Source: Amycolatopsis sp. DSM 110486 (GTDB lineage: Bacteria; Actinomycetota; Actinomycetes; Mycobacteriales; Pseudonocardiaceae). From it: a stretch of 64,000 nucleotides of DNA. The notes under the pieces were generated by a model. The model was given only the letters and a program-made list of their open reading frames with translations, had not been told where the DNA came from and searched no databases. Every line of letters begins with the position of its first letter. Position 1 is the stretch's first letter. The stretch is taken from the NCBI RefSeq assembly GCF_019468465.1, contig NZ_CP080519.1:9541001-9605000 (forward strand), given 5' to 3'. Both the position numbers and the translations under genes were made by a program. This document shows positions 21,869 to 37,617 of the stretch, in pieces.

Positions 21869-22780
21869 TCAGAGGCTCTCGGTGAAGAAGCCCGCCAGTT
21901 TGTCCACCGCCGGGCCCACGTAGCGCTCCTTGTCGTAGAGGTCGACGTGGCTCGCGCCTTCGACATGGTGCAGTTCCTTGGGACCCGTGGCCTTCAGGAA
22001 CGCCTCGACACTCATCCACGCGGTGATCGCGCGCGTGCCGACGATCATCAGCAGCGGGCGAGGGCCGATCAGCGGCACGGCGGCGAAGGCGTCGAACGTG
22101 GCGAACTTGTCGACGCTCGTCCAGTCGAAGAACTCGGCCGAGCGCGGGTGGTGTCCGCGCGCGGTGCGGTAGTACTCGAAGCCCTCCGCGCCGTGCTCCC
22201 CGCCGAGGGCGCGGGCCTGTTCGACCGTCTCGGGGAACAGCGTGAGCGGCGCGGGCTTCTCGCCGGCGGCCGCCACGGTGCGGGCGTGGGCGGCGGCGCC
22301 CAGCATGCCTTCGAACACGGCCGGGTCCTGCGCACCGTCGGCGCCCAGGCGGAACTGGCGGGCGATGTCGGCGCCGCTGACGGTCGCGACGGCCTTCACC
22401 CGGCGGTCGCTGCCGGTGGCCGACAGCACGTAGCCGCCGGACGCGCAGATGCCGAGCTCACCGATGCGGCCGGCGTCCACTTCGGAACGGGTGGTCAGGA
22501 ACGACACGGCGGCCTTGAAGTCCTCCACGCGCTGCGCGGGGTCTTCGAGGCCGCGCGGCTCGCCGCCGCTCTCGCCCTGGAAAGCGGCGTCGAACGCCAG
22601 CGTGACGAACCCGCGTTCGGCCAGGCGGGCCGCGTAGAGACCGGCGGCCTGTTCCTTCACGCCGCTGCCTGGGTGGCCGACGATCACGGCCGGGCTCGGG
22701 CCGTCGGCCTCGGCCGGGACGTAGAGGTGGCCGGCGAGCCGGACGCTAGCGCTGTCGAAGGTGACGTCGATCTTCGGCAC
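21869..22780 (-). CDS. alpha/beta hydrolase, dienelactone-hydrolase-like
   Basis: A 303-residue protein with VIVGHPGSGVKEQAAGLYAA after the first strands and the nucleophile elbow GICASGGYV, in which Ser of CASGG is the probable nucleophile. This matches the YcjY/MK0773-type hydrolases related to acetylxylan esterase and dienelactone hydrolase. The late His in EGASHVDLYD completes the triad. GTG 22780 has AGGGAG upstream. It is divergent from the XRE regulator, with 151 bases between them, so that regulator may control it. Confidence 0.85.
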   Translation of the reverse strand: MPKIDVTFDSASVRLAGHLYVPAEADGPSPAVIVGHPGSGVKEQAAGLYAARLAERGFVTLAFDAAFQGESGGEPRGLEDPAQRVEDFKAAVSFLTTRSEVDAGRIGELGICASGGYVLSATGSDRRVKAVATVSGADIARQFRLGADGAQDPAVFEGMLGAAAHARTVAAAGEKPAPLTLFPETVEQARALGGEHGAEGFEYYRTARGHHPRSAEFFDWTSVDKFATFDAFAAVPLIGPRPLLMIVGTRAITAWMSVEAFLKATGPKELHHVEGASHVDLYDKERYVGPAVDKLAGFFTESL

Positions 22781-22931
22781 GGGGTGCTCCCTGGGGGGAA
22801 TCTGTGCCCGGCGGGGTGCCGGGGCCTGGCTCCACGATCCGGCCGTGTCCGCGGGTCCACCAGAGACGGGTTTCCGGGTGGTCAAGATCCTGGCCCTCTT
22901 GCGCGCGGCAGGCCGGGCGCAGAATGAACGC

Positions 22932-23792
22932 ATGACCACTCCGTCCGGCTCCGCGCGGCTCGGCGACTTCCTCAAGGCGCGCCGCGCCCAGCTGACCCCT
23001 CGCGACGTCGGGCTGCCCGAAACCGGCACCCGCCGCAAGGTCGCGGGGCTGCGCCGCACCGAGGTCGCACAGCTGGCGGCCATCAGCGTCGAGTACTACA
23101 CGCGGCTGGAACAGGGCCGCGCCCAGGCGTCGGCGACGGTCCTCGCCACGCTCGCACGCGCCCTGCTGCTCGACGACGACCAGCAGACCTACCTCTACGA
23201 CCTCGCCGGCAAGGCCGACGCCCGCCCGCGCCGCCGTCGCACGGTGCAACGGGTGCGGCCCGCCATCCGGCGCCTGCTCGACCAGCTCACCGAAACCCCC
23301 GCGATCGTCCTCGGCAAACGCCTCGACATCCTGGGGTGGAACACCGCGGCGACCGCCCTGTACGTCGACTTCGCCCAGGTGGCGCCCGCGCGGCGCAACT
23401 ATGTGCACCTCATGTTCACCGAGCCGGCGTTCCGCGCCCTGCACCCGCACTGGCAGCACGACGCTCGTGTGGCCGTGTCGGCCCTGCGGATGGAGGCGGC
23501 CACCGATCCCGAGGATCCGGAGCTGGCCCGCCTCGTCGGCGAGCTTTCCGTGCAGAACGGCGACTTCCGCACGTGGTGGGTCGAGCACCGGGTCACCAGC
23601 GCGGGCTTCGGCACCAAGAACTACCGGCACCCGCTCGTCGGCGACCTCACGCTCGACTGCGACACCTGGCTCAGCCCCGACGGCTCCGGCCAGCGACTGA
23701 TGGTCCTCACCGCCGAGCCCGGCACCCCGTCGCGCGACGCGCTGGACATCCTGCTGTCCTGGAACGCCGAACATTCGGCGGCCGAGCGATGA
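22932..23792 (+). CDS. XRE-family regulator with MmyB-like ligand domain
   Basis: A 286-residue protein: helix-turn-helix at residues 10-80 (RRKVAGLRRTEVAQLAAISV, EYYTRLEQGR) and a C-terminal PAS-like MmyB domain (LGKRLDILGWNTAATALYVD to the end, with the conserved FRTWWVEHRV). The MmyB fold binds fatty-acid-like ligands in characterised relatives. It overlaps DUF2255 by ATGA and is divergent from the hydrolase, a common arrangement in which such regulators repress a neighbouring oxidoreductase or hydrolase. Confidence 0.9.
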   Translation: MTTPSGSARLGDFLKARRAQLTPRDVGLPETGTRRKVAGLRRTEVAQLAAISVEYYTRLEQGRAQASATVLATLARALLLDDDQQTYLYDLAGKADARPRRRRTVQRVRPAIRRLLDQLTETPAIVLGKRLDILGWNTAATALYVDFAQVAPARRNYVHLMFTEPAFRALHPHWQHDARVAVSALRMEAATDPEDPELARLVGELSVQNGDFRTWWVEHRVTSAGFGTKNYRHPLVGDLTLDCDTWLSPDGSGQRLMVLTAEPGTPSRDALDILLSWNAEHSAAER

Positions 23793-25831: not shown

Positions 25832-27526
25832 TCAGAACGTGAGGCTGCGCGCGAGGACGTCCTTGCGCACCTTGCCCATCGCGTTGCGCGGCAGCTCCGG
25901 CACCAGCTCCAGGCGCGTGGGCCAGTACCACTCCGTCATGCCGAGTGTGGCGAGGTGGTCACGCAGGCCCGCGAGCGTCGGCGGCTCGGCAGCGGCCACG
26001 ACGACCGCCGCGGGCAGCTCGCCGCCGGAGGTGTCCGGGTAGCCGACGAGCGCGACGTCGCGGACGGCCGGGTGCTCCAGCAGCGCGGACTCCACGTCGG
26101 CCGCCGGGATCATGAGCACGCCGCCGATGCGGTCGGCGTCGCGGCCCAGGAGACGGATGCCGCCGCGGCCGTCGGGGATCGCGAGGTCACCCGTGTCGTA
26201 CCAGCCGTCGTCGTGGTCGGCCGCCACGGTGAGCTCACCGGTGTCCCGCCCGACGGTGGCCAGGCAGACGGTGGCACCCCGGACGTAGAGCCGGCCCGGC
26301 CGTTCCGCGGTGATTTCCCCCAGGTCGGACCGCAGATCGAGTTCGCTGCCCCGGGAGATCCGGCCGACGCTGTGCAGCGCCCAGTCCGGCGGGTCGTCGG
26401 CGCGCATGAGGGTGCCGCCGGACTCGGTCATGCCCCAGCACGTGCGCAGCGGCACGCCCAGGGCGCGGGCGACGTCGGCGACGAGCGCGGCGGGAGTCGC
26501 GGTGCCGAGCGTCGTCACGGTGCGCAGCCGGCCGGGCCGCGCGTACGGCAGCAGCTGGGTCAGGAACACCGGCGCGATCAGCAGCTGCGTCACGGCCGTC
26601 TGTTCGAGGTAGGCGCCGATGGCTTCGGGTTCCCAGCGGTCCGCGACGACCCCGCAGCCGCCGGTGAGCAACGGGCGCATGAGGCAGTGGAAGATGCCGC
26701 CGGTGTGGGTGAGGGAGTGCGGGGTGAAGAACCGCTCGGCCGGTCCCTGGTCGTCGGCCGTGATGTGTGCGGCGGCGGTGGCGTACTCGGTGTTGAGGGT
26801 GTGCAGCGCGCCCTTCGGCCGGCCGGCGGTGCCGGAGGTGAAGAGCACCAGGCAGACCTGGTCGGGGTCTGGCCGGGCGTCCTCCAGGGCGACGGCGTGC
26901 CGCGTTTCCCACGGTTGTTCGAAGTGCTTCGTAAAGTCGACCTCGTCCGCCGCGACCCGCGAGCCCAGCACGACCCGATGCCGCAGCTTCGGCAGCCGCG
27001 GGACCATCTCCGCCAGGGCCGCCGCGTGATCGTAGCCGTCAAAGACGCCGGCCGTCACGCACACCGCCGCGCCGACCCGGGCGAGCACGCGCTCCAGCTC
27101 GCGCGACCGGATCGTCGGCATCACGGGCGCCACCAGCGCGCCGACCCGGAAACAGGCCAGCAGCAACGGATTGACCTGCCACACGTTCGGCAGCTGCACG
27201 GCCACGACCTGCCCCGGCCCCACACCCAGCTCGGTCAGCGCCCCGGCGTACCGCTCCACGCACCGCGCGTACTCGCGATAGGTCAACCGCGTCGTTTCGC
27301 CCGTCGCCGTCTGCAGCGCGATGAGGGCGGGCGCGTCCGGAGACTCGTCTCGCCACCGCACGAGGTCCTGCAGCGGATTTCCGTCCCGCCACACGCCTTC
27401 CGCGCGAAACCGGTCCACAACGGACGGTGGCGGCCGGAGGCTGAACACCGTCCGCCCCGGTCCTGGCGTGAACACGTCGGTGATGGCCGGCCCCTTCGGC
27501 TCGCAGGCGGTGAACAGCACGACCAC
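25832..27526 (-). CDS. class I acyl-CoA ligase (AMP-binding), AliA-like
   Basis: A protein of up to 564 residues with the adenylation motif LVLFTSGTAGRPKG, the A5 motif WGMTESGGT, the hinge GWYDTGDLAI..GGIRLLGRD, and the C-terminal catalytic Lys in PRNAMGKVRKD. Overall it resembles cyclohexanecarboxylate- or medium-chain-acyl-CoA ligases (AliA/FadK type). Starts at GTG 27526 or GTG 27520 are both possible; no strong ribosome binding site decides. It is transcribed alone, divergent from a membrane protein. Substrate not deducible. Confidence 0.85.
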   Translation of the reverse strand: MVVLFTACEPKGPAITDVFTPGPGRTVFSLRPPPSVVDRFRAEGVWRDGNPLQDLVRWRDESPDAPALIALQTATGETTRLTYREYARCVERYAGALTELGVGPGQVVAVQLPNVWQVNPLLLACFRVGALVAPVMPTIRSRELERVLARVGAAVCVTAGVFDGYDHAAALAEMVPRLPKLRHRVVLGSRVAADEVDFTKHFEQPWETRHAVALEDARPDPDQVCLVLFTSGTAGRPKGALHTLNTEYATAAAHITADDQGPAERFFTPHSLTHTGGIFHCLMRPLLTGGCGVVADRWEPEAIGAYLEQTAVTQLLIAPVFLTQLLPYARPGRLRTVTTLGTATPAALVADVARALGVPLRTCWGMTESGGTLMRADDPPDWALHSVGRISRGSELDLRSDLGEITAERPGRLYVRGATVCLATVGRDTGELTVAADHDDGWYDTGDLAIPDGRGGIRLLGRDADRIGGVLMIPAADVESALLEHPAVRDVALVGYPDTSGGELPAAVVVAAAEPPTLAGLRDHLATLGMTEWYWPTRLELVPELPRNAMGKVRKDVLARSLTF

Positions 27527-27608
27527 GCTACGGTCCCCGCCCCACCCGGCCCGAGGCCCCGCCGGGCAAAGTTTTCCGGCCGACCGGGCAACGCGATCCG
27601 CCCTTCGC

Positions 27609-27618
27609 ACGTATACGT
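27609..27618. promoter_or_regulatory. 10-base palindrome between divergent genes
   Basis: ACGTATACGT lies 21 bases before the start of the 27639 gene, within the 112-base divergent spacer. Its TATAC centre could overlap a -10 element, and the symmetry suggests an operator. Weak evidence. Confidence 0.3.
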
Positions 27619-27638
27619 CTCGAATCGAGGGGGAACGG

Positions 27639-28412
27639 ATGCCCGATCCGACCGACGCCGAGATCAAGGCGGCCGGCCGATGGCTGGAGAAGCACGACGT
27701 CCCGGCGAGCCGGCTCACGCCGTTTCTCGCGCGGCGGCTCGGCGTGCGCGCAGGTGCGCGACCCGGGCCGACGTGGTCCGGAATGCTCGCCGGCCTGCTG
27801 GTGATCGCGTTCGGCTCGTTCGCGATGCAGTTCTTGTCACTGCTGCCCGGAATCGACCACGACGACCTGCCTGAGGGCCGCACCACCTTCTGCCTCTTCG
27901 CCGGGCTGCAGCTCACCCTCTGGCTGCCCGTGCGGTGGGCCAACCGGCGCACCGCGGCCTGGCTCGGCGCCCCGACGCCCGCGCAGCGACCTTCGTGGCA
28001 CGAGGTGCTGAACGGGTGGTACGTCGCGGCCGCCGTGGTCACATTCGGCGGCGGCGCCGGCCTGGCGGTGGCGATGGTCGTGTCGTCCGGCAGCGTCTGG
28101 GCGCTGTTGTGGCTCGGGCTGCTGACGCTCGGCGCGGCCGTGGTGGCGGCAGTGCTGACCGACGTGCTGACGCGGCCGGTGCTCGCCGACGACGAGCTCT
28201 CCCGCTCCGTCGACGGAATCCTCCGCCGTAACGAGCCCTACTTCGCGCTGCCGGCGTTCTACGCGCTACCGGTGGTCGCCGACCTGGCGACGACCAACCG
28301 GCAGCCGCCCGGGTTCGTGCCGTGGCTGATCGTGTACGTAGTGGTCGCCGTCGGCGCGCAGGCGGCAGGGCTGGACCGGCACCGGCGCCGGGCCCTGACC
28401 GTGGCCGCCTGA
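27639..28412 (+). CDS. multi-pass membrane protein of unknown function
   Basis: A 257-residue protein. A short cytoplasmic N-terminus (AEIKAAGRWLEKHDVPASRL) is followed by about six membrane helices, among them MLAGLLVIAFGSFAMQFLSL and VWALLWLGLLTLGAAVVAAV. ATG 27639 has GGGGGAA upstream. No transporter signature is recognised. Its 3' 147 bases overlap the reading frame of the flavin reductase on the opposite strand. Confidence 0.7.
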   Translation: MPDPTDAEIKAAGRWLEKHDVPASRLTPFLARRLGVRAGARPGPTWSGMLAGLLVIAFGSFAMQFLSLLPGIDHDDLPEGRTTFCLFAGLQLTLWLPVRWANRRTAAWLGAPTPAQRPSWHEVLNGWYVAAAVVTFGGGAGLAVAMVVSSGSVWALLWLGLLTLGAAVVAAVLTDVLTRPVLADDELSRSVDGILRRNEPYFALPAFYALPVVADLATTNRQPPGFVPWLIVYVVVAVGAQAAGLDRHRRRALTVAA

Positions 28413-29015
28413 AGCGATGGCGGGCGTCTCGGACCGGAAGCTGTGCCCGAGGTGCTCGCCGAGGCCGAAGTAGTGGCGGAAGTTGTAGATCAGCGGGCTC
28501 CACTTCGCGGGATCCACGTGCTGGGTACCGGGCACGACCAGCTCCGGCGCGCAGTGCACCCGCAGCACGTCGGCCTCGATGACGAGGAACCCGGCGCGCT
28601 CGCGGATGGCGGCCGCGCGGGCTTCCAGCTGCAGCGGGCATTCGGCGATGCGCGGCGGCCGGACCAGCTCGGCCGGTTGTGGCCGCAGACCGGCCGCGGC
28701 GAACTTGTCGGGCTCGTGCCGGAACCGGTCGCGTTTGTGCTTGGGCACCGGGTCCGCGCCCGTCAGCGGGGCGAGCCGCTCCACCGCGGCCCATTGGCCG
28801 GGACCGGGCAGGTTGATCACGAGGTCGGGACGCGAGGTGAGGTTGCGCGCGCCGTGGCCGCAGCGGGCCAGCCCGAGCACCACGACCTCACCGAGCGCCC
28901 AGGCCGACGACATCGGCGTGATGTTCGGGGAGCCGTCGGCGTTTTCTGTGGTCAGCAAGGCGACCGGTGTGCCGAAGTACAGGATGCTGGGGGCAATCGC
29001 GACATGATCGTTCAC
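28266..29015 (-). CDS. flavin reductase family protein with antisense C-terminal extension
   Basis: A 249-residue frame of the flavin-reductase split-barrel family (VALLTTENADGSPNITPMSS, LVINLPGP, FLVIEADVLRVHCAPELVVP, and the typical end YNFRHYFGLGEHLGHSFRSE). Relatives end close to this last motif at about 205 residues. Here the frame runs on for another 45 residues into the antisense of the neighbouring membrane-protein gene, as if the original stop had been lost. It probably binds FMN. The extension has low complexity and may be disordered. Confidence 0.75.
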   Translation of the reverse strand: MNDHVAIAPSILYFGTPVALLTTENADGSPNITPMSSAWALGEVVVLGLARCGHGARNLTSRPDLVINLPGPGQWAAVERLAPLTGADPVPKHKRDRFRHEPDKFAAAGLRPQPAELVRPPRIAECPLQLEARAAAIRERAGFLVIEADVLRVHCAPELVVPGTQHVDPAKWSPLIYNFRHYFGLGEHLGHSFRSETPAIASGGHGQGPAPVPVQPCRLRADGDHYVHDQPRHEPGRLPVGRRQVGDHR

Positions 29016-29070: not shown

Positions 29071-29601
29071 TCAGAACTCCTCGGCGATCGACGACCAGAA
29101 GCGCAGTGCCGCTCGTTCCATCTCCAGCCCGAGCCGCAGCGGGATCATGCGGCGCGCGTACTGGGGCTCGGAACCGAAGCGGCGCTGCATGTCCTCGTAC
29201 ACGGAGATGCGTTCTTCGTGCTGTTTGATCTGCTCGCGCGCCAGGTTCACGATGTTGCCGGAGTCGCCGAGCTCGTTGAAAAAGAGCTTCATCTCGGCGA
29301 TGTCGCGCATCTCGAAATGCTCGTGCGTGGGCGCGGCGAGCCACGCCCGCACGGCTTCGCGGCCTTCGTCGGTGAGGCTGTAGACCTTGCGCCGGCGCCC
29401 GGTCTGCTCGGTCTCGACCTCCAACAGCCCCATGCGCTCCAGCCGCTCCGGCTCCGAGTACAGCTGCGCGTGGGGGAAGGACCAGAAGTACCCCACCGAG
29501 TGTCCGACGGCGCGCTTGAGGTCGTACGGCGTGGACGGGCCACGCAGCCCGATCGTCCCCAGCACGACGTACGAAGTCGTGCTCAACCGTCCGCTTGACA
29601 T
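29071..29601 (-). CDS. PadR-family transcriptional regulator
   Basis: A 176-residue PadR protein: winged helix at residues 5-80 (VLGTIGLRGPSTPYDLKRAV, SFPHAQLYSEPERLERMGLL) and a C-terminal Vir_act_alpha_C dimerisation helix region. ATG 29601 gives the usual length. It is divergent from the six-gene CoA-ligase/Mo-hydroxylase operon, with 94 bases between them that contain an inverted repeat, so it is the likely regulator of that operon. Several PadR proteins respond to phenolic acids. Confidence 0.9.
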   Translation of the reverse strand: MSSGRLSTTSYVVLGTIGLRGPSTPYDLKRAVGHSVGYFWSFPHAQLYSEPERLERMGLLEVETEQTGRRRKVYSLTDEGREAVRAWLAAPTHEHFEMRDIAEMKLFFNELGDSGNIVNLAREQIKQHEERISVYEDMQRRFGSEPQYARRMIPLRLGLEMERAALRFWSSIAEEF

Positions 29602-29631
29602 GCCCTCGACCCTACCGTAATTTCGCCCATA

Positions 29632-29658
29632 GTCCGAAACAGACGATTCGATTCGGAC
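29632..29658. promoter_or_regulatory. inverted repeat in the PadR/operon spacer
   Basis: GTCCGAA at 29632-29638 and TTCGGAC at 29652-29658 form a perfect 7-base dyad with 13 bases between. It lies in the divergent spacer and is a good candidate for the PadR operator. Confidence 0.5.
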
Positions 29659-29695
29659 CATCGATCTCCGGATCTCCGGGAGTGAGAGTGCGCCG

Positions 29696-31249
29696 ATGGA
29701 CTTGGTGAAATCCTTCCGCTGGACAGCCGAGCGGTACCCGCATCGCCGGGCCGTGGGTGGCCGGCATCCGATGACCTACGCCCAATGGGACGACCGCACT
29801 GACCGCCTGGCCGGTGCGCTGACCCGGCTGGGCGTGCGCCCGGGCGACCACGTCGCGCTCCTCCTCGCCGGCGGGGAGCCGCTCGCGAGCCTGCACCTCG
29901 CCGTGCAGAAGACCGGGGCGATCTCCGTTCCGCTGTCCACGCGGTTCAGCGCCGACGACGTGGCCTACTGCCTGCGCGACTGCTCCCCCGCCCTGCTGAT
30001 CACCGACAACACCACCGACACCACGGTCGCCGGCATCGCCGAGCTGCCGGCCCGCGCATACTCCGGAGCGGCGCTGGATGCACCCGACCGGGTGACGCCG
30101 CTGGCGCGGCTGCTCGACTCCCCCGCGCCGAAGCACCAGCCGGCCGATGGCGACACGAGCGTCATGCTCTACACGTCCGGCACCACGGGCCGGCCGAAAG
30201 GTGTGCCGCGCCGCCACTCCGCCGAGCACGCGGCCGCGGTGGCGCACCTGATCCAGACCCAGCACCGCCCTGGCGAGGTCGCGCTCGGCGTGATGCCGAT
30301 GTTCCACACCATGGGCATGCGCGCGCTGCTGGCCAGCATCCTCGCGGCGGGCACCTGGGTGCCGCAGGAGAAGTTCGACGCCGAGGAGTCGCTGGAGCTC
30401 ATCACCGGGGAAGACGTGAGCGCGCTCTACCTGGTGCCCACCGCGTACTGGTCGCTGGTCCACACAGGACGGCTGGCCGAAGCGAAGTCCGTGCGGCGGC
30501 TGGCCTACGCGGGCGCGTCGATGACGCCCGCGCTCGCCGAACGGCTCGACGCCGAGCTGCACCCGGAGGTGTTCGTCAACCACTTCGGCAGCACGGAGAT
30601 CTACACCTTCACGATCGGGCCCGACGTGCGCCGCAAACCGGGCTGCGCCGGCCGCGCCGGGGTCTTCTCCCGCGTCCGCCTGGTCAGCCCGGCCGAGGGC
30701 GCGTCACCGGACGACCTCGTGGCGCCGGGCGAACCGGGCCAGGTGGCGGTGTCGCTCGAGAGCCCGGAGGCGTTCAGCGGGTACTGGCACCGGCCCGACG
30801 CCGACGCGAAGTCGCTGCGCGCCGGCTGGTACTTCACCGGCGACCTCGCGACCGAGGACGAGGACGGCGACCTGTGGGTCGCGGGCCGTGTGGACGACAT
30901 GATCAACTCCGGCGGCGAGAACATCTACCCCGAGGACATCGAAGACGCCCTCGTGCGCTGCCCGGCCGTCGCCGAGATCGTGGTCGCCGGGCTCCCCGAC
31001 GACCGTTGGGGCAGCGCGGTCACGGCGTTCGTCGTGCCCTCGGCCGGGTACCGGCCCGAGGAAACGCTGGCACAGCTGGAGTCCTACGCGCGGGAACACT
31101 CGGGACTGCCGTCGCTGAAACGGCCCAAGCGCTACCTGGCCGTGGCCGGTATCCCCAAGTCGGCCGTCGGCAAGATCCTGCGCCGCGAGCTGACCGCGGG
31201 CCACTACCGCCGGCTGGCGCAGCTCGTGCCGGGCAAGGAGCGCGCATGA
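29696..31249 (+). CDS. acyl-CoA ligase, probable 2-furoyl-CoA synthetase
   Basis: A 517-residue class I adenylate-forming enzyme: VMLYTSGTTGRPKG, HFGSTEIYTF (A5), GWYFTGDLATEDEDGDLWVA with GRVDDMINSGGENIYP, and catalytic Lys in PKSAVGKILRRE. It would activate an organic acid to its CoA thioester in the cytoplasm. As the first gene of an operon with a molybdenum hydroxylase and a crotonase, it corresponds to HmfD of the furoate pathway. It overlaps the next gene by ATGA. Other aromatic acids cannot be excluded by sequence alone. Confidence 0.85.
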   Translation: MDLVKSFRWTAERYPHRRAVGGRHPMTYAQWDDRTDRLAGALTRLGVRPGDHVALLLAGGEPLASLHLAVQKTGAISVPLSTRFSADDVAYCLRDCSPALLITDNTTDTTVAGIAELPARAYSGAALDAPDRVTPLARLLDSPAPKHQPADGDTSVMLYTSGTTGRPKGVPRRHSAEHAAAVAHLIQTQHRPGEVALGVMPMFHTMGMRALLASILAAGTWVPQEKFDAEESLELITGEDVSALYLVPTAYWSLVHTGRLAEAKSVRRLAYAGASMTPALAERLDAELHPEVFVNHFGSTEIYTFTIGPDVRRKPGCAGRAGVFSRVRLVSPAEGASPDDLVAPGEPGQVAVSLESPEAFSGYWHRPDADAKSLRAGWYFTGDLATEDEDGDLWVAGRVDDMINSGGENIYPEDIEDALVRCPAVAEIVVAGLPDDRWGSAVTAFVVPSAGYRPEETLAQLESYAREHSGLPSLKRPKRYLAVAGIPKSAVGKILRRELTAGHYRRLAQLVPGKERA

Positions 31250-33630
31250 CGGCGGCCCGCATCGAAGACGTTCCCTTGCTGTGCGGCAAGGGGAAGTTCC
31301 TCGACGACCTCGATCCGATGCGCGGCTCGCTGGTCGCGGCGGTCGTGCGCAGCCCGCACCCGCACGCGCGCATCCGGTCCGTCGAGCTGTCGCGCGCCCG
31401 GGCGCACCCGGGCGTCGCGGTGGTCCTCGGCCCGGACGACGTACTCGCGGCGCTGAAGCCGTTCCCCCTCTCGCTCAACACACCGATCCGCTACTACCCC
31501 ACCGGGACCGACAAGGTGCGATTTGTCGGCGAGCCCGTGGCCGTCGTCGTCGCGACCGACCGCTACACGGCCGAGGACGCGGCGGAACTGGTCGAAGTGG
31601 ACTACGAGCCGCTACCGCCCGTGGTCGACTCCACGCGCGCGATCGCCGAGGACGCACCGTTGCTGCACGAGGAGCTGGGCAGCAACGTCGCCACCGACCG
31701 CACGTTCAGCTTCGGTCCCGTCGACGAGATCTTCGCCGCCGCCGCGCACGTGGTGACCGGCGAATACCGGTTCCCGCGCTACACGTCGGCACCCATGGAG
31801 TGTTACTCGGTCGTCGCGGAGTGGCTTGAGGACGCCGACGGACCGGGTGTCACCGCGTGGGCCAACTTCCACGGGCCGTTCTCCATGGTCCCGGTGCTGG
31901 CGGCGGGCCTCGGGCTGCCGACGTCGCGAGTGCGGCTGCGCGTGCCTGCGGACATCGGCGGCAGCTTCGGCATCAAGTCGGGCATCTACCCCTACGTCGC
32001 GCTGATGGCCTTGGCCAGCAAGCACTGCGGCCGGCCGGTGCGCTGGACCGAGGACCGCGTGGAGCACCTGCTGTCGAGCTCGGCGGGTTCGGACCGGTGG
32101 ATGCGGTTCGAGGCGGCCGTCGACGCCGACGGCAAAGTCGAGGCCCTGCGCGCCGACCTCGTCGACAACGTCGGCGCGTACCTGCGCCCGCCCGAGCCCA
32201 GCACGCTCTATCGCTGCTTCGGCAACATCACCGGCGCGTACGGCATCGGCGCGGTGGCGATCCGGGCCCGGGCGGTGGTCACAAACAAGACGCCCACCGG
32301 CCTCAACCGCGGCTTCGGCGGCCAGCAGCTCTACTTCGGGCTCGAGCGGATCATGGACCGCGTCGCCCGCGAGCTCGACCTCGACCCCGCGGAGATCCGG
32401 CGGCGCAACCTGATCCAGGCCGGCTCGTTCCCGTACCACACGCCCAGCGGCGGCGTGTACGACTCGGGCGACTACCCGCGGGCGTTCGAGCTGGCCCTGC
32501 GCAACGCCGACTACGAGAAGCTGTGCGAGCGCCGGCGGCAGGCTCGTGAAGCCGGCGAGTACTTCGGCATCGGCATGGCGACGATCGTCGACCCGTCGGC
32601 GACCAACATCGGCTACGTCGGTCTCGCCACCCCGGCCGAGCAGCGCGCGAGTGGGCGCGGGAAGTCGGGCAGCACGGAGCACGTCCGGATCAGCGTCGAC
32701 CCGCAGGGCGTGGTGTCGGTGCTGCTGGGCACGGTGCCGCAGGGCCAGGGACACGCCACGGTCGCGCGCCAGCTCGTGGCCCAGCGGCTGGGGCTGCCGC
32801 AGGAGTCCGTGCGGCCGGTGGTCGAGATGGACACGGCCACCACACCGTGGACGATCACCTCCGGCAGCTACTCCTCGCGCTTCGCTCCCCTGCTCACCAG
32901 CGCGCTCGTCGCCGCGGCCGACAAGATCGCCGAGACGATCCGGGCCGCGGCCGGCGTGCTGCTCGACACGGATCCCGCCGGGCTGGAGCTGGCCGACGGG
33001 TTCGTGCGCGAACGCGACGCACCCGATCGGTGCGTGGCCTTCCGGCACGCCGCCGGGTTGGTGCACTGGGACCCCGGGTCACTGCCGGAAGGGGTGCCGG
33101 CGCGGCTGTACGAGGAGGCGGCGTTCAACCCGCCCCAGGCCAAAGCACCGTCCACAGGGGACCAGATCAACTCCAGCCTGTGCTACGGATTCGTCGCCGA
33201 GCTGGTCGCGGTGCGGATCGACCCGGTGAGCCTCGCCGTGGAGGTCGAGCTGGTGTCCACAGTGCACGACGCCGGCACGATCCTGAACCCGAAGCTGCTG
33301 GAGGGCCAGGTGCACGGGGCGCTCGCGCACGCCCTCGGCGGCGCGCTCTACGAAGAGCTCCGCTACGCCGATTCGGGCCAGCCCACGTCGGCGACCTTCA
33401 TGGACTACCTCTGCCCCACCAGCGCGGAAGCCAGCTACCCGCTGATCAGCGACCACCTCGAGACGCCCTCTCCGTTCACCACGCTCGGCGCGAAGGGCTG
33501 CGGCGAGGGCTCGAGCATGAGCCTGCCGGTGGCGATCGCCAACGCGGTCACCGACGCGCTCGGCGTCGAGGTCACGACCCTGCCCCTGCACGGCAACGTC
33601 GTGCACGAACTACTGGAAAGGAAGGCCTAA
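31246..33630 (+). CDS. xanthine-dehydrogenase-family Mo-binding subunit (HmfA-like)
   Basis: A 794-residue large subunit that holds the molybdopterin-cytosine-dinucleotide cofactor. Visible family motifs: GKGKFLDDLD near the start, FVGEPVAVVVA, the Mo-site stretch IGGSFGIKSG, NRGFGGQQLYFGLERIMD, and the C-terminal catalytic Glu in GAKGCGEGSSM. It hydroxylates or dehydrogenates a heteroaromatic or aldehyde substrate with water as the oxygen source. Overlaps at both ends (ATGA, TAATG) show strict co-translation with the ligase and crotonase, so its substrate is likely the CoA ester. Confidence 0.9.
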   Translation: MTAARIEDVPLLCGKGKFLDDLDPMRGSLVAAVVRSPHPHARIRSVELSRARAHPGVAVVLGPDDVLAALKPFPLSLNTPIRYYPTGTDKVRFVGEPVAVVVATDRYTAEDAAELVEVDYEPLPPVVDSTRAIAEDAPLLHEELGSNVATDRTFSFGPVDEIFAAAAHVVTGEYRFPRYTSAPMECYSVVAEWLEDADGPGVTAWANFHGPFSMVPVLAAGLGLPTSRVRLRVPADIGGSFGIKSGIYPYVALMALASKHCGRPVRWTEDRVEHLLSSSAGSDRWMRFEAAVDADGKVEALRADLVDNVGAYLRPPEPSTLYRCFGNITGAYGIGAVAIRARAVVTNKTPTGLNRGFGGQQLYFGLERIMDRVARELDLDPAEIRRRNLIQAGSFPYHTPSGGVYDSGDYPRAFELALRNADYEKLCERRRQAREAGEYFGIGMATIVDPSATNIGYVGLATPAEQRASGRGKSGSTEHVRISVDPQGVVSVLLGTVPQGQGHATVARQLVAQRLGLPQESVRPVVEMDTATTPWTITSGSYSSRFAPLLTSALVAAADKIAETIRAAAGVLLDTDPAGLELADGFVRERDAPDRCVAFRHAAGLVHWDPGSLPEGVPARLYEEAAFNPPQAKAPSTGDQINSSLCYGFVAELVAVRIDPVSLAVEVELVSTVHDAGTILNPKLLEGQVHGALAHALGGALYEELRYADSGQPTSATFMDYLCPTSAEASYPLISDHLETPSPFTTLGAKGCGEGSSMSLPVAIANAVTDALGVEVTTLPLHGNVVHELLERKA

Positions 33631-34409
33631 TGGCGCTCACCGGAGGCGAGATCCGGCTCGGCCGCACCCACGACGGGCAGGTCGCCCAGCTGACGCTCTC
33701 CCACGGCCGCTTCACGATCATCACGTGGGAGATGCGGCAGCGGATGGCGGAGCTGTTCGCCGAGATCGACGCCGACGACGACGTGCGCGTGGTGGTGCTG
33801 AAGTCCGACGGCGAGCACTTCTCCTCGGGCGGCGACATCCCCGGCTTCATGGAGGTCGAGCCGGTCGGCTTCACCGACCTCGGCCACAACGTCACCGCGC
33901 CCGCGCGCAGCAGGAAGATCGTGGTCGCGGCCGTCGACGGCTACTGCTTCGGCGTGGGCCTGGAGCTCGTGCTGTCGACGGACATCCGGCTGGCCACGCC
34001 GCGCAGCCGGTTCGCGCTGCCCGAGATGAAGCTCGGCATGATCCCCGGCAGCGGCGGCACGCAGCGGCTCGCGCGGCTGATCGGCCTGTCGCGCGCCAAG
34101 TTCCACATCCTCACCGCCGAGCGGATCACCGGCGAACAGGCGCTGGACTGGGGCCTGGTGGCCAAGCTCGCGGCCGACCGCGACGAGCTCTACGCGGAGA
34201 CGGACAAGGTCGTCGAGACGCTGCTGGGCTACTCCCCCATGGCGGCGCGCACCGCCAAGGAGGTGCTCGACAAGGGCGTCGACGGGCCGCTCTACACGGG
34301 CATCGAGCTGGAGCGCAAGGCGTACGCGATGCTGCGCGCGAGCCACGACTTCGCCGAGGGCGTGGCGGCGTTCACCGAGAAGCGGCCCGCGAAGTTCCAG
34401 GGGCGCTGA
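33630..34409 (+). CDS. crotonase-family protein, probable 2-oxoglutaroyl-CoA hydrolase (HmfE-like)
   Basis: A 259-residue enoyl-CoA hydratase/isomerase-fold protein. Oxyanion-hole motifs are HFSSGGDIPGF and GYCFGVGLEL; one catalytic Glu is kept in ALPEMKLGMIPGSGGTQRL. The second Glu of true hydratases falls on Phe in GLSRAKFHILTAE, so simple hydration is doubtful and thioester hydrolysis fits better. It lies between the Mo subunit and the FAD subunit, an unusual order that implies it belongs to the same pathway. Confidence 0.8.
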   Translation: MALTGGEIRLGRTHDGQVAQLTLSHGRFTIITWEMRQRMAELFAEIDADDDVRVVVLKSDGEHFSSGGDIPGFMEVEPVGFTDLGHNVTAPARSRKIVVAAVDGYCFGVGLELVLSTDIRLATPRSRFALPEMKLGMIPGSGGTQRLARLIGLSRAKFHILTAERITGEQALDWGLVAKLAADRDELYAETDKVVETLLGYSPMAARTAKEVLDKGVDGPLYTGIELERKAYAMLRASHDFAEGVAAFTEKRPAKFQGR

Positions 34410-34412
34410 GCC

Positions 34413-35246
34413 GTGAAAGCCGCACCGTTCGCCTACGTCCGGCCCGCGACGCTCGACGACGCCGTCGCCGAGCTCGTGCGCAGCGCCGGTGAGGGCAAGG
34501 TGCTCGCGGGAGGCCAGTCGCTGGTGCCGATCCTGGCGATGCGGCTTGCGCGTCCGTCCACCGTGGTCGACATCGCGGCACTGTCCGAACTGGACTTCGT
34601 GCGCCGCGACGGCGACGAGCTCGTGATCGGGGCCCTGGTGCGCCAGCGGACGCTGGAAGGGCACCCGCTCGCCGCGGCCGTGCCGCTGCTGCGCCTGGCG
34701 CTGCCGTGGATCGGGCACCGCGAGCTGCGCAGCCGGGGCACGGTGTGCGGCAGCATCGCGCACGCCGACCCCGCCGCCGAGCTGCCCGCGGTGGCCTGCT
34801 GCCTGGGCGCGTCGCTCGAGATCGCCGGTCCGCACGGCCGGCGCACCGTGACGGCGGCCGAGTTCTTCCACGGCGCCATGGCCACCTCGGTCGGCGCCGA
34901 GGACGTGCTGGCCGCGGTGCGCTTCCCCGTGGCCCGCCCTGGTGAGGGCTTCGGGTTCGCCGAGATCGCGCGCCGCCACGGCGATTTCGCGCTGGCCGGG
35001 GTGGCCACGCGGTTCCGTGCCGACGACGGGGAAGCCGCGTTCACCGCGTTCGGGGTGTCCGATCGTCCGGTTACGCGCGACGTCACCGGTCTCGGCGACG
35101 ACGAAGTGGCCGACCTGGCCCGCGACCTCGTGGACACCGCGGGCGACACCCACGGCTCACGCGAGTACCGGCAGCGGCTCGTCGCGGCGCTGGCCGTGCG
35201 CGAGCTGGCCCGGGCGCGGCGAGCGGCGGAAGGAGGAACGGCATGA
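34413..35246 (+). CDS. FAD-binding medium subunit of the Mo-hydroxylase (HmfB-like)
   Basis: A 277-residue CoxM-type subunit: KVLAGGQSLVPILAMRLARP binds the FAD pyrophosphate, followed by LRSRGTVCGSIAHADPAAEL with the second FAD loop. It has no 4Fe-4S insertion, which distinguishes it from HcrB of 4-hydroxybenzoyl-CoA reductase. It passes electrons from the 2Fe-2S centres onward. GTG 34413 lies three bases after the crotonase stop; the end overlaps the next gene. Confidence 0.9.
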   Translation: MKAAPFAYVRPATLDDAVAELVRSAGEGKVLAGGQSLVPILAMRLARPSTVVDIAALSELDFVRRDGDELVIGALVRQRTLEGHPLAAAVPLLRLALPWIGHRELRSRGTVCGSIAHADPAAELPAVACCLGASLEIAGPHGRRTVTAAEFFHGAMATSVGAEDVLAAVRFPVARPGEGFGFAEIARRHGDFALAGVATRFRADDGEAAFTAFGVSDRPVTRDVTGLGDDEVADLARDLVDTAGDTHGSREYRQRLVAALAVRELARARRAAEGGTA

Positions 35247-36460
35247 CTCTGCCGCGGCCGGTCCGCGCGGAAGCCGGCGAGCCCGTCGACGTGACGATGA
35301 CCGTGAACGGCACGGAGGTGTCGCTGTCGCTGCCCGCGCGCGTGACGCTCGCCGACGCGCTGCGCGACCACCTCGGCCTCACCGGCACGCATCTGGGCTG
35401 CGAGCACGGCGTGTGCGGGATGTGCACCGTGCTGGTCGACGGCTCCGCCGCCCGCGCGTGCCTGTTGTTCGCCTGCCAGCTCGACGGCGCGGACATCGTG
35501 ACGGTCGAGGGCCTCGGGCGCCCGGACGACCTGCACCCGTTGCAGGAGGCGTTCGGCTCGCACCACGCGCTGCAGTGCGGGTTCTGCACGCCGGGGTTCC
35601 TGCTCAGCTCCTACGACCTGCTGGCGCACAAGCCGGACGTCGCCGAAGAGGACCTCCCCGTGGAGCTGTCCGGCGTGCTGTGCCGGTGCACCGGCTACCG
35701 CAACATCCTCTCCGCGGTGTCCGAAGTGGCCGGTGCGCACCGCGACGGGATCCCCGAGCCACGCAACTGCGGGCACCACGTGCTGATGGGCCACACCGCG
35801 GCCAAGCCCGGCGCCAAGTCCGCGCCCGAACCGGTGGGCGTCGAGGAGATCGAACTGCCGCAAGGGGATCCGACCTTCACCGTCGAGGTCACCCAGGAGC
35901 TCACCGCGTCGCCAGAGAAGACGTGGGCCGTGCTCGACGACATCGACCTCGTCGCCGCGTGCCTGCCCGGGGCGGAGATCACCGAGCACCTCGGCGACGA
36001 TCGTTACCGCGGCCAGGCGCGGGTCTCCGTCGGGCCGATCCGGCTTTCGTTCGCGGGGCTGGCGCAGGTCACCGAACGTGACGCGGAGGCGCACCGCCTG
36101 CGGGTGATCGGCCAGGGCGAGGACGTCGGGGGCGGGCGCACCCAGGCCGTCATCCTGCTCGTCGCGGAGGAAACCGGCGCGGGGACGCGGCTGCGGGCGA
36201 CCGCGCAGGTGTACCTGACCGGCCGGATCGCGCAGTTCGGCCGCGCGCTGGCCGGCGACGTCAGCCGGCGTATGTTCGAGCAGTTCGCCGCGGCCGTGGA
36301 GGAGACCGCGGTGTCCGGGGTGCGCACGACGGCAAGGAAGCCGCCGGGCGCACTGGCCCTCCTCGCAGCCACTCTCGCGGCGAAAGCCCGGGAATGGGGC
36401 CGGCGCCTGCGCCGGGCCGAGCACAACCCACCCACACATCCGAAAGGGACTCAACGATGA
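35243..36460 (+). CDS. 2Fe-2S subunit fused to a CoxG/SRPBCC domain (HmfC-like)
   Basis: A 405-residue fusion. Residues 15-170 are the CoxS-type subunit with a plant-type 2Fe-2S site (C53, C58, C61, C73) and the second 2Fe-2S site (C112, C115, C147, C149, in CGFC and CRC). A linker leads to residues 210-355, a CoxG domain (VEVTQELTASPEKTWAVLDD, LPGAEI, GQARVSVGPIRLSFAGLAQV). CoxG proteins normally stand apart and help place or mature Mo-hydroxylases at the membrane. The C-terminal tail is basic and Ala-rich, perhaps membrane-associated. Confidence 0.9.
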   Translation: MTLPRPVRAEAGEPVDVTMTVNGTEVSLSLPARVTLADALRDHLGLTGTHLGCEHGVCGMCTVLVDGSAARACLLFACQLDGADIVTVEGLGRPDDLHPLQEAFGSHHALQCGFCTPGFLLSSYDLLAHKPDVAEEDLPVELSGVLCRCTGYRNILSAVSEVAGAHRDGIPEPRNCGHHVLMGHTAAKPGAKSAPEPVGVEEIELPQGDPTFTVEVTQELTASPEKTWAVLDDIDLVAACLPGAEITEHLGDDRYRGQARVSVGPIRLSFAGLAQVTERDAEAHRLRVIGQGEDVGGGRTQAVILLVAEETGAGTRLRATAQVYLTGRIAQFGRALAGDVSRRMFEQFAAAVEETAVSGVRTTARKPPGALALLAATLAAKAREWGRRLRRAEHNPPTHPKGTQR

Positions 36461-37617
36461 GTTCGACCGCCCCGATCGACAAGATCCTGAGCGACGCCGT
36501 CGACGCCGGCGACGTGCCCAACGTCGTGGCCATCGCCGCCGACGACAACGGCATCATCTACGAAGGCGCCGCCGGCCCGCGCGCCGCCGGCAGCGCCGAC
36601 CCGGCGTCCGCGGACACACACTTCCGCATCATGTCGATGACCAAGATGGTCACGACCACCGCGGCGTTGAAGCTGGCCGACCAAGGGCAGCTCGACCTCG
36701 ACGCGCCGGTCGAGCGGTACCGGCCCGAGTTCGCCGAGATGAAGGTGCTCGAAGGCTTCGACGGTGACCAGCCGAGGCTGCGGGCGCCGGCCTCGCGGGC
36801 GACCGTGCGGCAGCTGATGACGCACACCTCGGGCCTGAGCTACTGGTTCTGGAACGACGACATCGTGAAGTGGGAGAAGGCCACCGGCATCCCCAACGTG
36901 CTGTCGGGCCAGAAGATCGTGCTGACCGCCCCGATGATCGCCGATCCCGGCACGAAGGTCGAGTACGGCACCAACACCGACTGGCTGGGCCAGGTGGTCG
37001 AGGCCGTCGCCGGGGTGACGCTCGACGTGTTCTTCAAGGAGCACATCACCGGGCCGCTGGGGATGACCGAGACGTCGTTCGCCCCGACCGGCCCGCAGCG
37101 CAGCAACCTGGCGCCGGTGCACGTCCTGGGCGAGGACGGCAAGTGGCTGGCCACCGACATCAACATCCCCGAGCAGCCCGAGTACTGGGCCGGCGGCCAC
37201 GGTCTGTACTCCACGCCGCGCGACTACCTCAAGTTCCAGCGGATGCTGCTGGGCGGCGGCACGCTCGACGGCACCAAGGTGCTCGAACGCTCCACTGTGG
37301 ACGCCGCGTTCACCAACCAGATCGGCGACCTGGACTTCCCGGCGCGTATCCCGACCGCGGACCCGACGTCGTCGTTCGACTTCGCCGCGGGTCCGGGCCA
37401 CAAGTGGGGCCTGGGGCTCGTGCTCAACAGCGAGCAGCGACCGGGGATGCGCGCCGCGGGCAGCGGGACGTGGGCCGGGCTGTGCAACTCGTTCTTCTGG
37501 GTCGACCCGGTGAACCGCGTGACGGGCGCGATCTACAGCCAGTCGCTACCGTTCGTGCCGCCGCCGTTCGTCAAGCTGTACGAGGACTTCGAGCGGGCAC
37601 TGTACGCGACGCGCTAG
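36457..37617 (+). CDS. serine hydrolase, beta-lactamase/EstB family
   Basis: A 386-residue class-C-beta-lactamase-like esterase. The SxxK motif is S60-M-T-K63 in RIMSMTKMVT; a Tyr motif is in KVEYGTNTDW; typical surrounding sequence includes RQLMTHTSGLSYWF and LGMTETSFAP. There is no signal peptide, so the enzyme is cytoplasmic and more likely an esterase than a drug-resistance enzyme. ATGA overlap with the Fe-S subunit makes it the last gene of the operon; it might release furoate or a related acid from esters. Confidence 0.85.
   Translation: MSSTAPIDKILSDAVDAGDVPNVVAIAADDNGIIYEGAAGPRAAGSADPASADTHFRIMSMTKMVTTTAALKLADQGQLDLDAPVERYRPEFAEMKVLEGFDGDQPRLRAPASRATVRQLMTHTSGLSYWFWNDDIVKWEKATGIPNVLSGQKIVLTAPMIADPGTKVEYGTNTDWLGQVVEAVAGVTLDVFFKEHITGPLGMTETSFAPTGPQRSNLAPVHVLGEDGKWLATDINIPEQPEYWAGGHGLYSTPRDYLKFQRMLLGGGTLDGTKVLERSTVDAAFTNQIGDLDFPARIPTADPTSSFDFAAGPGHKWGLGLVLNSEQRPGMRAAGSGTWAGLCNSFFWVDPVNRVTGAIYSQSLPFVPPPFVKLYEDFERALYATR

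Follow-up and report, generated by a model that had tools for sequence, protein, structure and literature searches.

2-Furoic acid arises when plant sugars are heated and is degraded by the hmf pathway, which is known from proteobacteria such as Cupriavidus basilensis and comprises an acyl-coenzyme A (CoA) ligase (HmfD), a three-subunit molybdenum dehydrogenase (HmfABC) and a crotonase-type hydrolase (HmfE). An operon encoding the same five enzyme families, with a padR-type regulator gene beside it, lies at positions 29071-37617 of a 64,000-nucleotide stretch (the window; G000:C1:9541001-9605000) of the 11 Mb genome of Amycolatopsis sp. DSM 110486 (the host). Gene content, kinship and synteny make it very probably an actinobacterial hmf operon, with 2-furoate as its likely substrate. 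Following the reaction steps in the pathway passages of PMC6678421, its HmfD would convert 2-furoate to 2-furoyl-CoA, and HmfABC, using water at its molybdenum centre, would hydroxylate this ester at C5 and pass the electrons from molybdenum through [2Fe-2S] clusters to flavin adenine dinucleotide (FAD). The hydroxylated product would tautomerise to a lactone whose ring opens to give 2-oxoglutaroyl-CoA, from which HmfE, an enzyme of crotonase fold, would release 2-oxoglutarate in the final step.

A genome-contig scan yielded 585 confirmed relatives, of which the best 80 were kept and their genes labelled by BLAST; these comprise 11 named actinobacterial loci, 5 from Bacilli and 64 others, and the locus counts below refer to this set. 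The order padR-D-A-E-B-C~G, in which C~G denotes an Fe-S subunit fused to a CoxG domain, recurs in 11/11 named actinobacterial loci, which argues against a chance grouping of genes and, through the same order, fusion and padR, marks the window's locus as a standard, if rare, actinobacterial hmf operon. These loci, found in Saccharopolyspora, Amycolatopsis, Streptomyces, Nocardioides, Pseudonocardia, Sinomonas, Blastococcus, Actinomycetospora and Halosaccharopolyspora, share order, fusion and PadR with the window, with large subunits 70-77% identical; padR is divergent in ten and co-oriented in one (L017). They differ from the window in that none of the 11 has an esterase gene directly downstream, five carry an hmf-like major facilitator superfamily (MFS) transporter gene, and three carry UbiD/UbiX genes.

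The sequence-only reading of this stretch had placed the genes and named their families as the open reading frames and Pfam domains confirm (Table 1), and its order D-A-E-B-C, CoxG fusion on the Fe-S subunit and PadR regulator all hold. The minus-strand padR is followed by six plus-strand genes, encoding ligase, molybdenum subunit, crotonase, FAD subunit, Fe-S~CoxG protein and esterase. Four of the five junctions in this run overlap, as ATGA between ligase and large subunit (31246-31249), FAD and Fe-S subunits (35243-35246) and Fe-S subunit and esterase (36457-36460), and as TAATG with a 1-base overlap (33630) between large subunit and crotonase. The genes had been said to overlap base for base, which fails at the fifth junction, where a 3-base gap separates the crotonase gene from the GTG start of the FAD subunit at 34413.

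Table 1. Features of the hmf-type operon and its control region, in window positions.
Feature	Position	Strand	Basis
padR-type regulator, 176 aa from likely start Met21	29071..29601	-	Pfam PF03551 + PF10400 above cut-off
Promoter-like TTGACA-17 nt-TAATTT, 5' of hmfD, overlapping padR start	29595..29623	+	Direct reading
Probable PadR operator, 10-nt inverted repeat 29629-29638 / 29652-29661	29629..29661	.	Core GTCCGAAACAGACGAT at 29632-29647
hmfD-like acyl-CoA ligase, 517 aa	29696..31249	+	Pfam AMP-binding; 43-46% to HmfD of five hmf-type loci (BLASTP)
hmfA-like molybdenum large subunit, 794 aa	31246..33630	+	Pfam MoCoBD_1/MoCoBD_2; 46-50% to HmfA (BLASTP)
hmfE-like crotonase-family enzyme, 259 aa	33630..34409	+	Pfam ECH_1; 46-50% to HmfE (BLASTP)
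hmfB-like FAD subunit, GTG start, 277 aa	34413..35246	+	FAD_binding_5; 36-44% to HmfB
hmfC-like [2Fe-2S] subunit fused to CoxG	35243..36460	+	Fer2/Fer2_2 then COXG, single chain; 50-57% to HmfC
Serine esterase, beta-lactamase fold, AcmB-like, 386 aa, accessory	36457..37617	+	Pfam Beta-lactamase; NF052559 356 bits

The large subunit matched 921 plasmid records by tblastn, all below 60% identity, and the best 40 of the 921 were listed. Five of these 40 loci, from Cupriavidus oxalaticus, Paraburkholderia aromaticivorans, Dinoroseobacter shibae, Cupriavidus pinatubonensis and Geobacillus, were opened as references; each holds three subunits, ligase and enoyl-CoA hydratase in a single run. The reference Hmf proteins are thus homologues assigned by gene content, not the proteins of C. 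basilensis HMF14. Among the plasmid matches listed, the Geobacillus large subunit is the closest at 50%, and identity drops sharply to the next molybdenum paralogs, which reach at most 40% in the host and 41% across the 100 relatives searched. The window's large subunit is without the C-terminal CoxG part seen in proteobacterial HmfA.

A quick IQ-TREE reconstruction of 45 large subunits, hand-picked from fetched loci and supported by the Shimodaira-Hasegawa-like approximate likelihood ratio test (SH-aLRT) only, included an outgroup of 10 rows composed of seven other host paralogs, nicotine dehydrogenase, an annotated CoxL and xanthine dehydrogenase. The 35 HmfA-type rows separate from these with SH-aLRT 100, and 14 actinobacterial rows form a single group with SH-aLRT 100. 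This phylogeny, which had been proposed as a check, places the window inside the HmfA-type clade, and the prospect that its closest relatives act on other substrates is not borne out for large subunit, ligase or crotonase. In 28 HmfA-type rows, the window's among them, sixteen positions carry the same residue throughout, and none of the 10 outgroup rows has these residues; the count leaves out seven divergent rows (L028, L036, L058, L060, L063, L080 and L141).

An aerobic carbon monoxide (CO) dehydrogenase, or a generic xanthine-oxidase-family enzyme lying by chance beside fatty-acid genes, is highly improbable. The best NCBIfam model for the large subunit is indeed CODH_aero_grp5, its best PDB match is CoxL 8uem, CoxG is typical of CO dehydrogenases, and the Fe-S subunit is not diagnostic, yet the large subunit scores 462 bits against a cut-off of 950 (NF040766) and 439 against 991 (TIGR02416), the 45-row tree sets it apart, and ligase and crotonase accompany it in 11/11 named actinobacterial loci. 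AYxCSFR, the copper-loop motif of form I CoxL, is absent from the window, which reads PTGLNRGFGG at that place. The motif is present as AYACSFR in a host paralog at G000:C1:9742938 (locus L005) that groups with the annotated CoxL and is probably a true CO dehydrogenase among the host's 15 MoCoBD_1 matches. 4-Hydroxybenzoyl-CoA reductase (HcrABC) was rejected on NCBIfam scores below the cut-offs, 366 of 995 (alpha), 73 of 405 (beta) and 134 of 258 bits (gamma).

The remaining enzymes differ in how diagnostic they are. Ligase, crotonase, FAD subunit and Fe-S part were each searched against plasmids by tblastn, the best 20 records being listed for each, and a match was counted as hmf-type when a listed large-subunit match lay no more than a few kb away. 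By this measure 19/20 listed ligase matches and 19/20 listed crotonase matches adjoin a large subunit; the twentieth in both cases is Cupriavidus campinensis, where ligase, crotonase and FAD matches lie within 4 kb. The ligase is 39% identical to a second Geobacillus ligase, below its identities to HmfD, and other host crotonases reach at most 41% to the window's crotonase. The crotonase shares the turn FGVG with all HmfE rows, where four host paralogs have LGGG or FGGG, and it retains both Glu positions that we take to be catalytic; a scan of viral contigs for relatives of the crotonase gave none. The FAD subunit adjoins a large subunit in 13/20 listed matches and the Fe-S part in only 6/20. 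From these neighbourhoods, A, D and E carry the hmf assignment, B agrees and C is non-discriminating, so the proposed hmfD, hmfABC and hmfE identities stand clearly for A, D and E and consistently for B, but the Fe-S subunit alone is not diagnostic. Among the closest listed plasmid matches to HmfB and HmfC is a Thermomicrobium roseum pair (NC_011961.1 758568-759916; FAD 46%, Fe-S 57%).

UbiD and UbiX occur together in 3/11 actinobacterial, 0/5 Bacilli and 15/64 other loci, and in three of the five opened reference loci (C. oxalaticus, P. aromaticivorans and D. shibae). The P. aromaticivorans locus holds a glucose-methanol-choline (GMC) oxidoreductase in addition; the Geobacillus and C. pinatubonensis stretches show no UbiD or UbiX. 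We take the UbiD, UbiX and GMC oxidoreductase of the reference loci to be HmfF, HmfG and HmfH, names that follow PMC12064950 in part. The UbiDs of actinobacterial loci L014, L015 and L020 are 56-60% identical to the P. aromaticivorans protein. For the L014 protein the best match is 6h6v (453 bits), presumably Pelotomaculum HmfF, with 6h6x, of the same name and length, at 449 and the next distinct enzyme at 217. We take an HmfF-like UbiD with UbiX to be furan-specific; the 27 kb of the window labelled around the operon show no UbiD plus UbiX pair.

Several observations weigh against the hmf reading. The actinobacterial clade has a long stem in the 45-row tree, 0.76 changes per column, so a substrate shift is possible. 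The top listed plasmid match of the FAD subunit is Thermomicrobium roseum, outside any identified hmf-type cluster, and the top listed Fe-S matches are mostly other hydroxylases (Aminobacter, Variovorax, nicotine-plasmid Arthrobacter and others). Relatives of similar identity exist without an adjacent HmfE-like crotonase (Halorussus L141 at 47%, L058 and L060), no HmfF is found in the host, whose six UbiD proteins share 27-34% identity with UbiD of the HmfF type, and the MFS transporter of the congeners is absent from the host, with a best match of 33%. The same chemistry might instead act on another five-membered heteroaromatic acid, thiophene-2-carboxylate or pyrrole-2-carboxylate, by way of a CoA ester, C5 hydroxylation and hydrolysis: besides the long separate stem, UbiD plus UbiX was not seen in 8/11 named loci, as in the 27 kb around the operon, and the ring atom is not fixable from sequence alone. 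Against this stand the HmfF-like UbiD and UbiX of the other 3/11 sister loci and the ligase and crotonase, which, besides the dehydrogenase, are nearest to Hmf proteins. We regard another ring acid as unlikely and retain 2-furoate as the probable substrate.

Within the genus, an HmfA-type protein of at least 67% identity is present in the host and 8/59 congeners, and beyond it in 1/40 additional genomes from the same order. When the phylum was sampled evenly, 4/245 other genomes had one, at 54-56% and all in one family. Two of these four were opened (L157 in G193 and L158 in G183) and both read A-D-E-B-C, forming a second actinobacterial hmf type. L157 (3580-4830) carries a separate CoxG gene 9 bases after C, the C-terminus of its product resembling a transmembrane helix, and plausibly represents the state before fusion; in L158 (1-10141), UbiD, UbiX and aldehyde dehydrogenase genes follow the five. 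The congener locus L110 (G055) has the deviating order A-E-B-C~G-D. Automatic annotation has already recognised the enzyme, '2-furoyl-CoA dehydrogenase large subunit' being the JGI name of many homologues and the NCBI name of some actinobacterial ones. The first reading knew of no well-described actinobacterial version, and searches of open-licence papers listed no study devoted to such an operon in actinobacteria; the operon is, however, not limited to the host and its homologues are annotated.

Compared with the Cupriavidus/Paraburkholderia hmfABCDE clusters, the window shares the five enzyme families and a tight operon, which UbiD/UbiX adjoin in some of those loci, and its proteins are 36-57% identical to theirs. 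They differ in gene order (A-B-C-D-E against D-A-E-B-C), in the position of CoxG (at the HmfA C-terminus against HmfC) and in regulation, with LysR or AraC genes beside hmf in the four proteobacterial loci opened and PadR in the window. Geobacillus kaustophilus pHTA426 and other Bacilli likewise possess A, B, C, D and E, but in the order A-G-B-C-D-E with CoxG as a separate gene; XdhC, nucleotidyltransferase and moaA genes lie near the Geobacillus/Bacilli cluster, and the stretch contains no padR match. A Halorussus vallis plasmid (L141, 3791-11195) encodes three subunits, two ligases, a BenE transporter and a thioesterase, with a large subunit at 47% and no crotonase match in the stretch; it is possibly an archaeal relative of the pathway.

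The Fe-S protein, composed of a [2Fe-2S] part (~residues 1-170), a CoxG domain (~207-360) and a basic C-terminal helix (370-394), scores above the cut-off of PF06240 (CoxG). Residues 218-361 match CoxG 8uds_D by sequence (E 1.6e-19), and the best Foldseek match of its AlphaFold model in the PDB is again 8uds (template-modelling score TMt 0.88), entitled 'CoxG from M. smegmatis, minus lipid anchoring C-terminus'. The model has a mean predicted local distance difference test score (pLDDT) of 64.7, its Fe-S part being poor owing to a shallow alignment and not used; in the CoxG domain, 12/16 ten-residue blocks reach 83-95 (lowest 59), and the blocks of helix 370-394 score 68, 83 and 65. A helical-moment scan of C-termini was weak, with its maximum often on a helix within the CoxG domain, and is not used as proof. 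The domain thus resembles Mycobacterium smegmatis CoxG in fold and in its membrane-type C-terminal tail, whereas the M. smegmatis CoxG is a separate protein and that of the window is covalently joined to the Fe-S subunit.

The placement of CoxG, reported here as new, varies by lineage: it is fused to HmfC in 11/11 actinobacterial loci, a gene of its own in 5/5 Bacilli loci and at the HmfA C-terminus in 54/64 other loci, mostly proteobacterial. In the other 10/64 no CoxG was seen, L028, L055, L085 and L086 among them being short stretches. Its attachment to varied subunits suggests a membrane- and quinone-linked dehydrogenase, in which the CoxG domain and basic C-terminal helix would tether the complex to the inner membrane for (mena)quinone reduction. 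The accounts of CoxG disagree on this point. PMC13240472, in the passages on CoxG and with Kropp 2025 cited there, describes a menaquinone-binding carrier, whereas PMC11962113, in the part concerning the Sulfolobus G3P dehydrogenase, finds a CoxG-like partner required for membrane binding and not for quinone reduction, and argues that CoxG merely anchors its enzyme, which counts against a shuttle. Tethering is therefore likely and quinone shuttling slightly more probable than not. That CoxG is a membrane anchor or assembly factor only, on an otherwise genuine hmf dehydrogenase, has an appreciable probability, distinctly below even: the Sulfolobus partner speaks for it, and the menaquinone-binding description, together with M. 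smegmatis CoxG as the nearest solved structure, speaks against. Among the matches listed for open-licence papers, none linked CoxG with furoate.

The mechanical padR reading frame begins at 29661. Because the TTGACA box would then fall within the gene, the likelier start is Met21 at 29601. The promoter-like pattern TTGACA-17-TAnnnT is present in 14/20 upstream regions examined; a generic promoter scan listed nothing, and the boxes rest on these conserved upstream regions. They are followed in the padR-hmfD gap by the 16-bp site GTCCGAAACAGACGAT. The operator pattern RTCYGAAACAGAYNRT, derived from these same upstream regions, occurs in 13/20 of them (window and 12/19), and its 13 matches in 1.83 Mb of loci all lie in the padR-hmfD gap. 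At whole-genome scale, 8/9 genomes of the genus that have the operon, counting the host, carry this site before hmfD, a conservation reported here as new; they hold 9 matches, all before the operon and two of them adjacent in G048, and the reversed pattern gave 0 matches in these genomes. With up to 2 mismatches, the window by itself gave one match, no more than expected by chance, so the weight of the operator rests on its position before hmfD in eight genomes.

Other counts weigh against the operator: 7/20 upstream regions have no strict match, congener G055 has the operon and no operator in its whole genome, and one stray match occurs in each of 4/51 congeners without the operon (0/24 + 4/27). 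G078, of another genus, likewise has no operator match. The four stray matches look like chance: each falls in a long open frame, no two have DNA in common, and none adjoins padR or an hmf gene, apart from a distant (23-29%) ligase in one. PadR would bind the candidate operator, which overlaps the transcription start region of hmfD, and repress the operon, and furoate, furoyl-CoA or a later product may release PadR.

The esterase is a local addition outside the conserved operon set, judging from its distribution; the sequence-only reading had called it an added gene, and it does follow HmfC, but it does not belong to the set common to the 11 named loci. It scores 356 of 550 bits against the AcmB model NF052559 (methyl acetate hydrolase), below the cut-off, and is related to that family without being a member. 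Orthologues stand in the same place in the two nearest congeners (98% and 85%), and in five other congeners its place is taken by an MFS gene with 46-51% identity to the C. pinatubonensis hmf MFS, an arrangement reported here as new. A 58% esterase relative lies beyond padR in L018. The esterase would probably feed the pathway, our guesses for its role being the release of furoate from esters or the opening of the lactone. In its pathway passages, PMC6678421 gives the lactone hydrolysis step without an assigned gene; PMC12064950 lists, for Pseudomonas, a putative hydrolase named 'hyd' at this step.

Around the operon, a second AMP-binding ligase gene and a flavin-reductase-like gene lie just beyond padR (window 25832-28042 and 28266-29015, minus strand); of the congeners opened, only G028 has a ligase labelled at the corresponding position. 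The window's flanking genes match G028 DNA and mostly not the other compared congeners. A dienelactone-hydrolase-like protein is encoded ~6 kb from padR (21869-23083, minus strand), with no link to the operon shown. A 68% esterase paralog occurs ~50 kb upstream of the window (G000:C1:9490179-9491327, inside L152), where the surroundings comprise a luciferase-like monooxygenase and ATP-binding cassette (ABC)/FecCD iron-transport genes and show no furan link.

Taken across phyla, 2-furoyl-CoA dehydrogenases may generally be membrane-tethered, quinone-reducing enzymes with CoxG joined to different subunits by phylum, and the lineage of the window may have swapped an importer for a furoate-supplying or lactone-opening esterase, a proposal we hold tentatively and just short of an even chance. 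The operon would extend furoate degradation, known from proteobacteria, to a phylum of soil degraders, in a conserved and separately regulated form. Its CoxG fusions point to a specific, testable route for the electrons released when 2-furoyl-CoA is oxidised. The PadR operator provides a candidate furan-acid sensor, and the esterase a candidate for the lactone step that the pathway passages of PMC6678421 leave gene-less.

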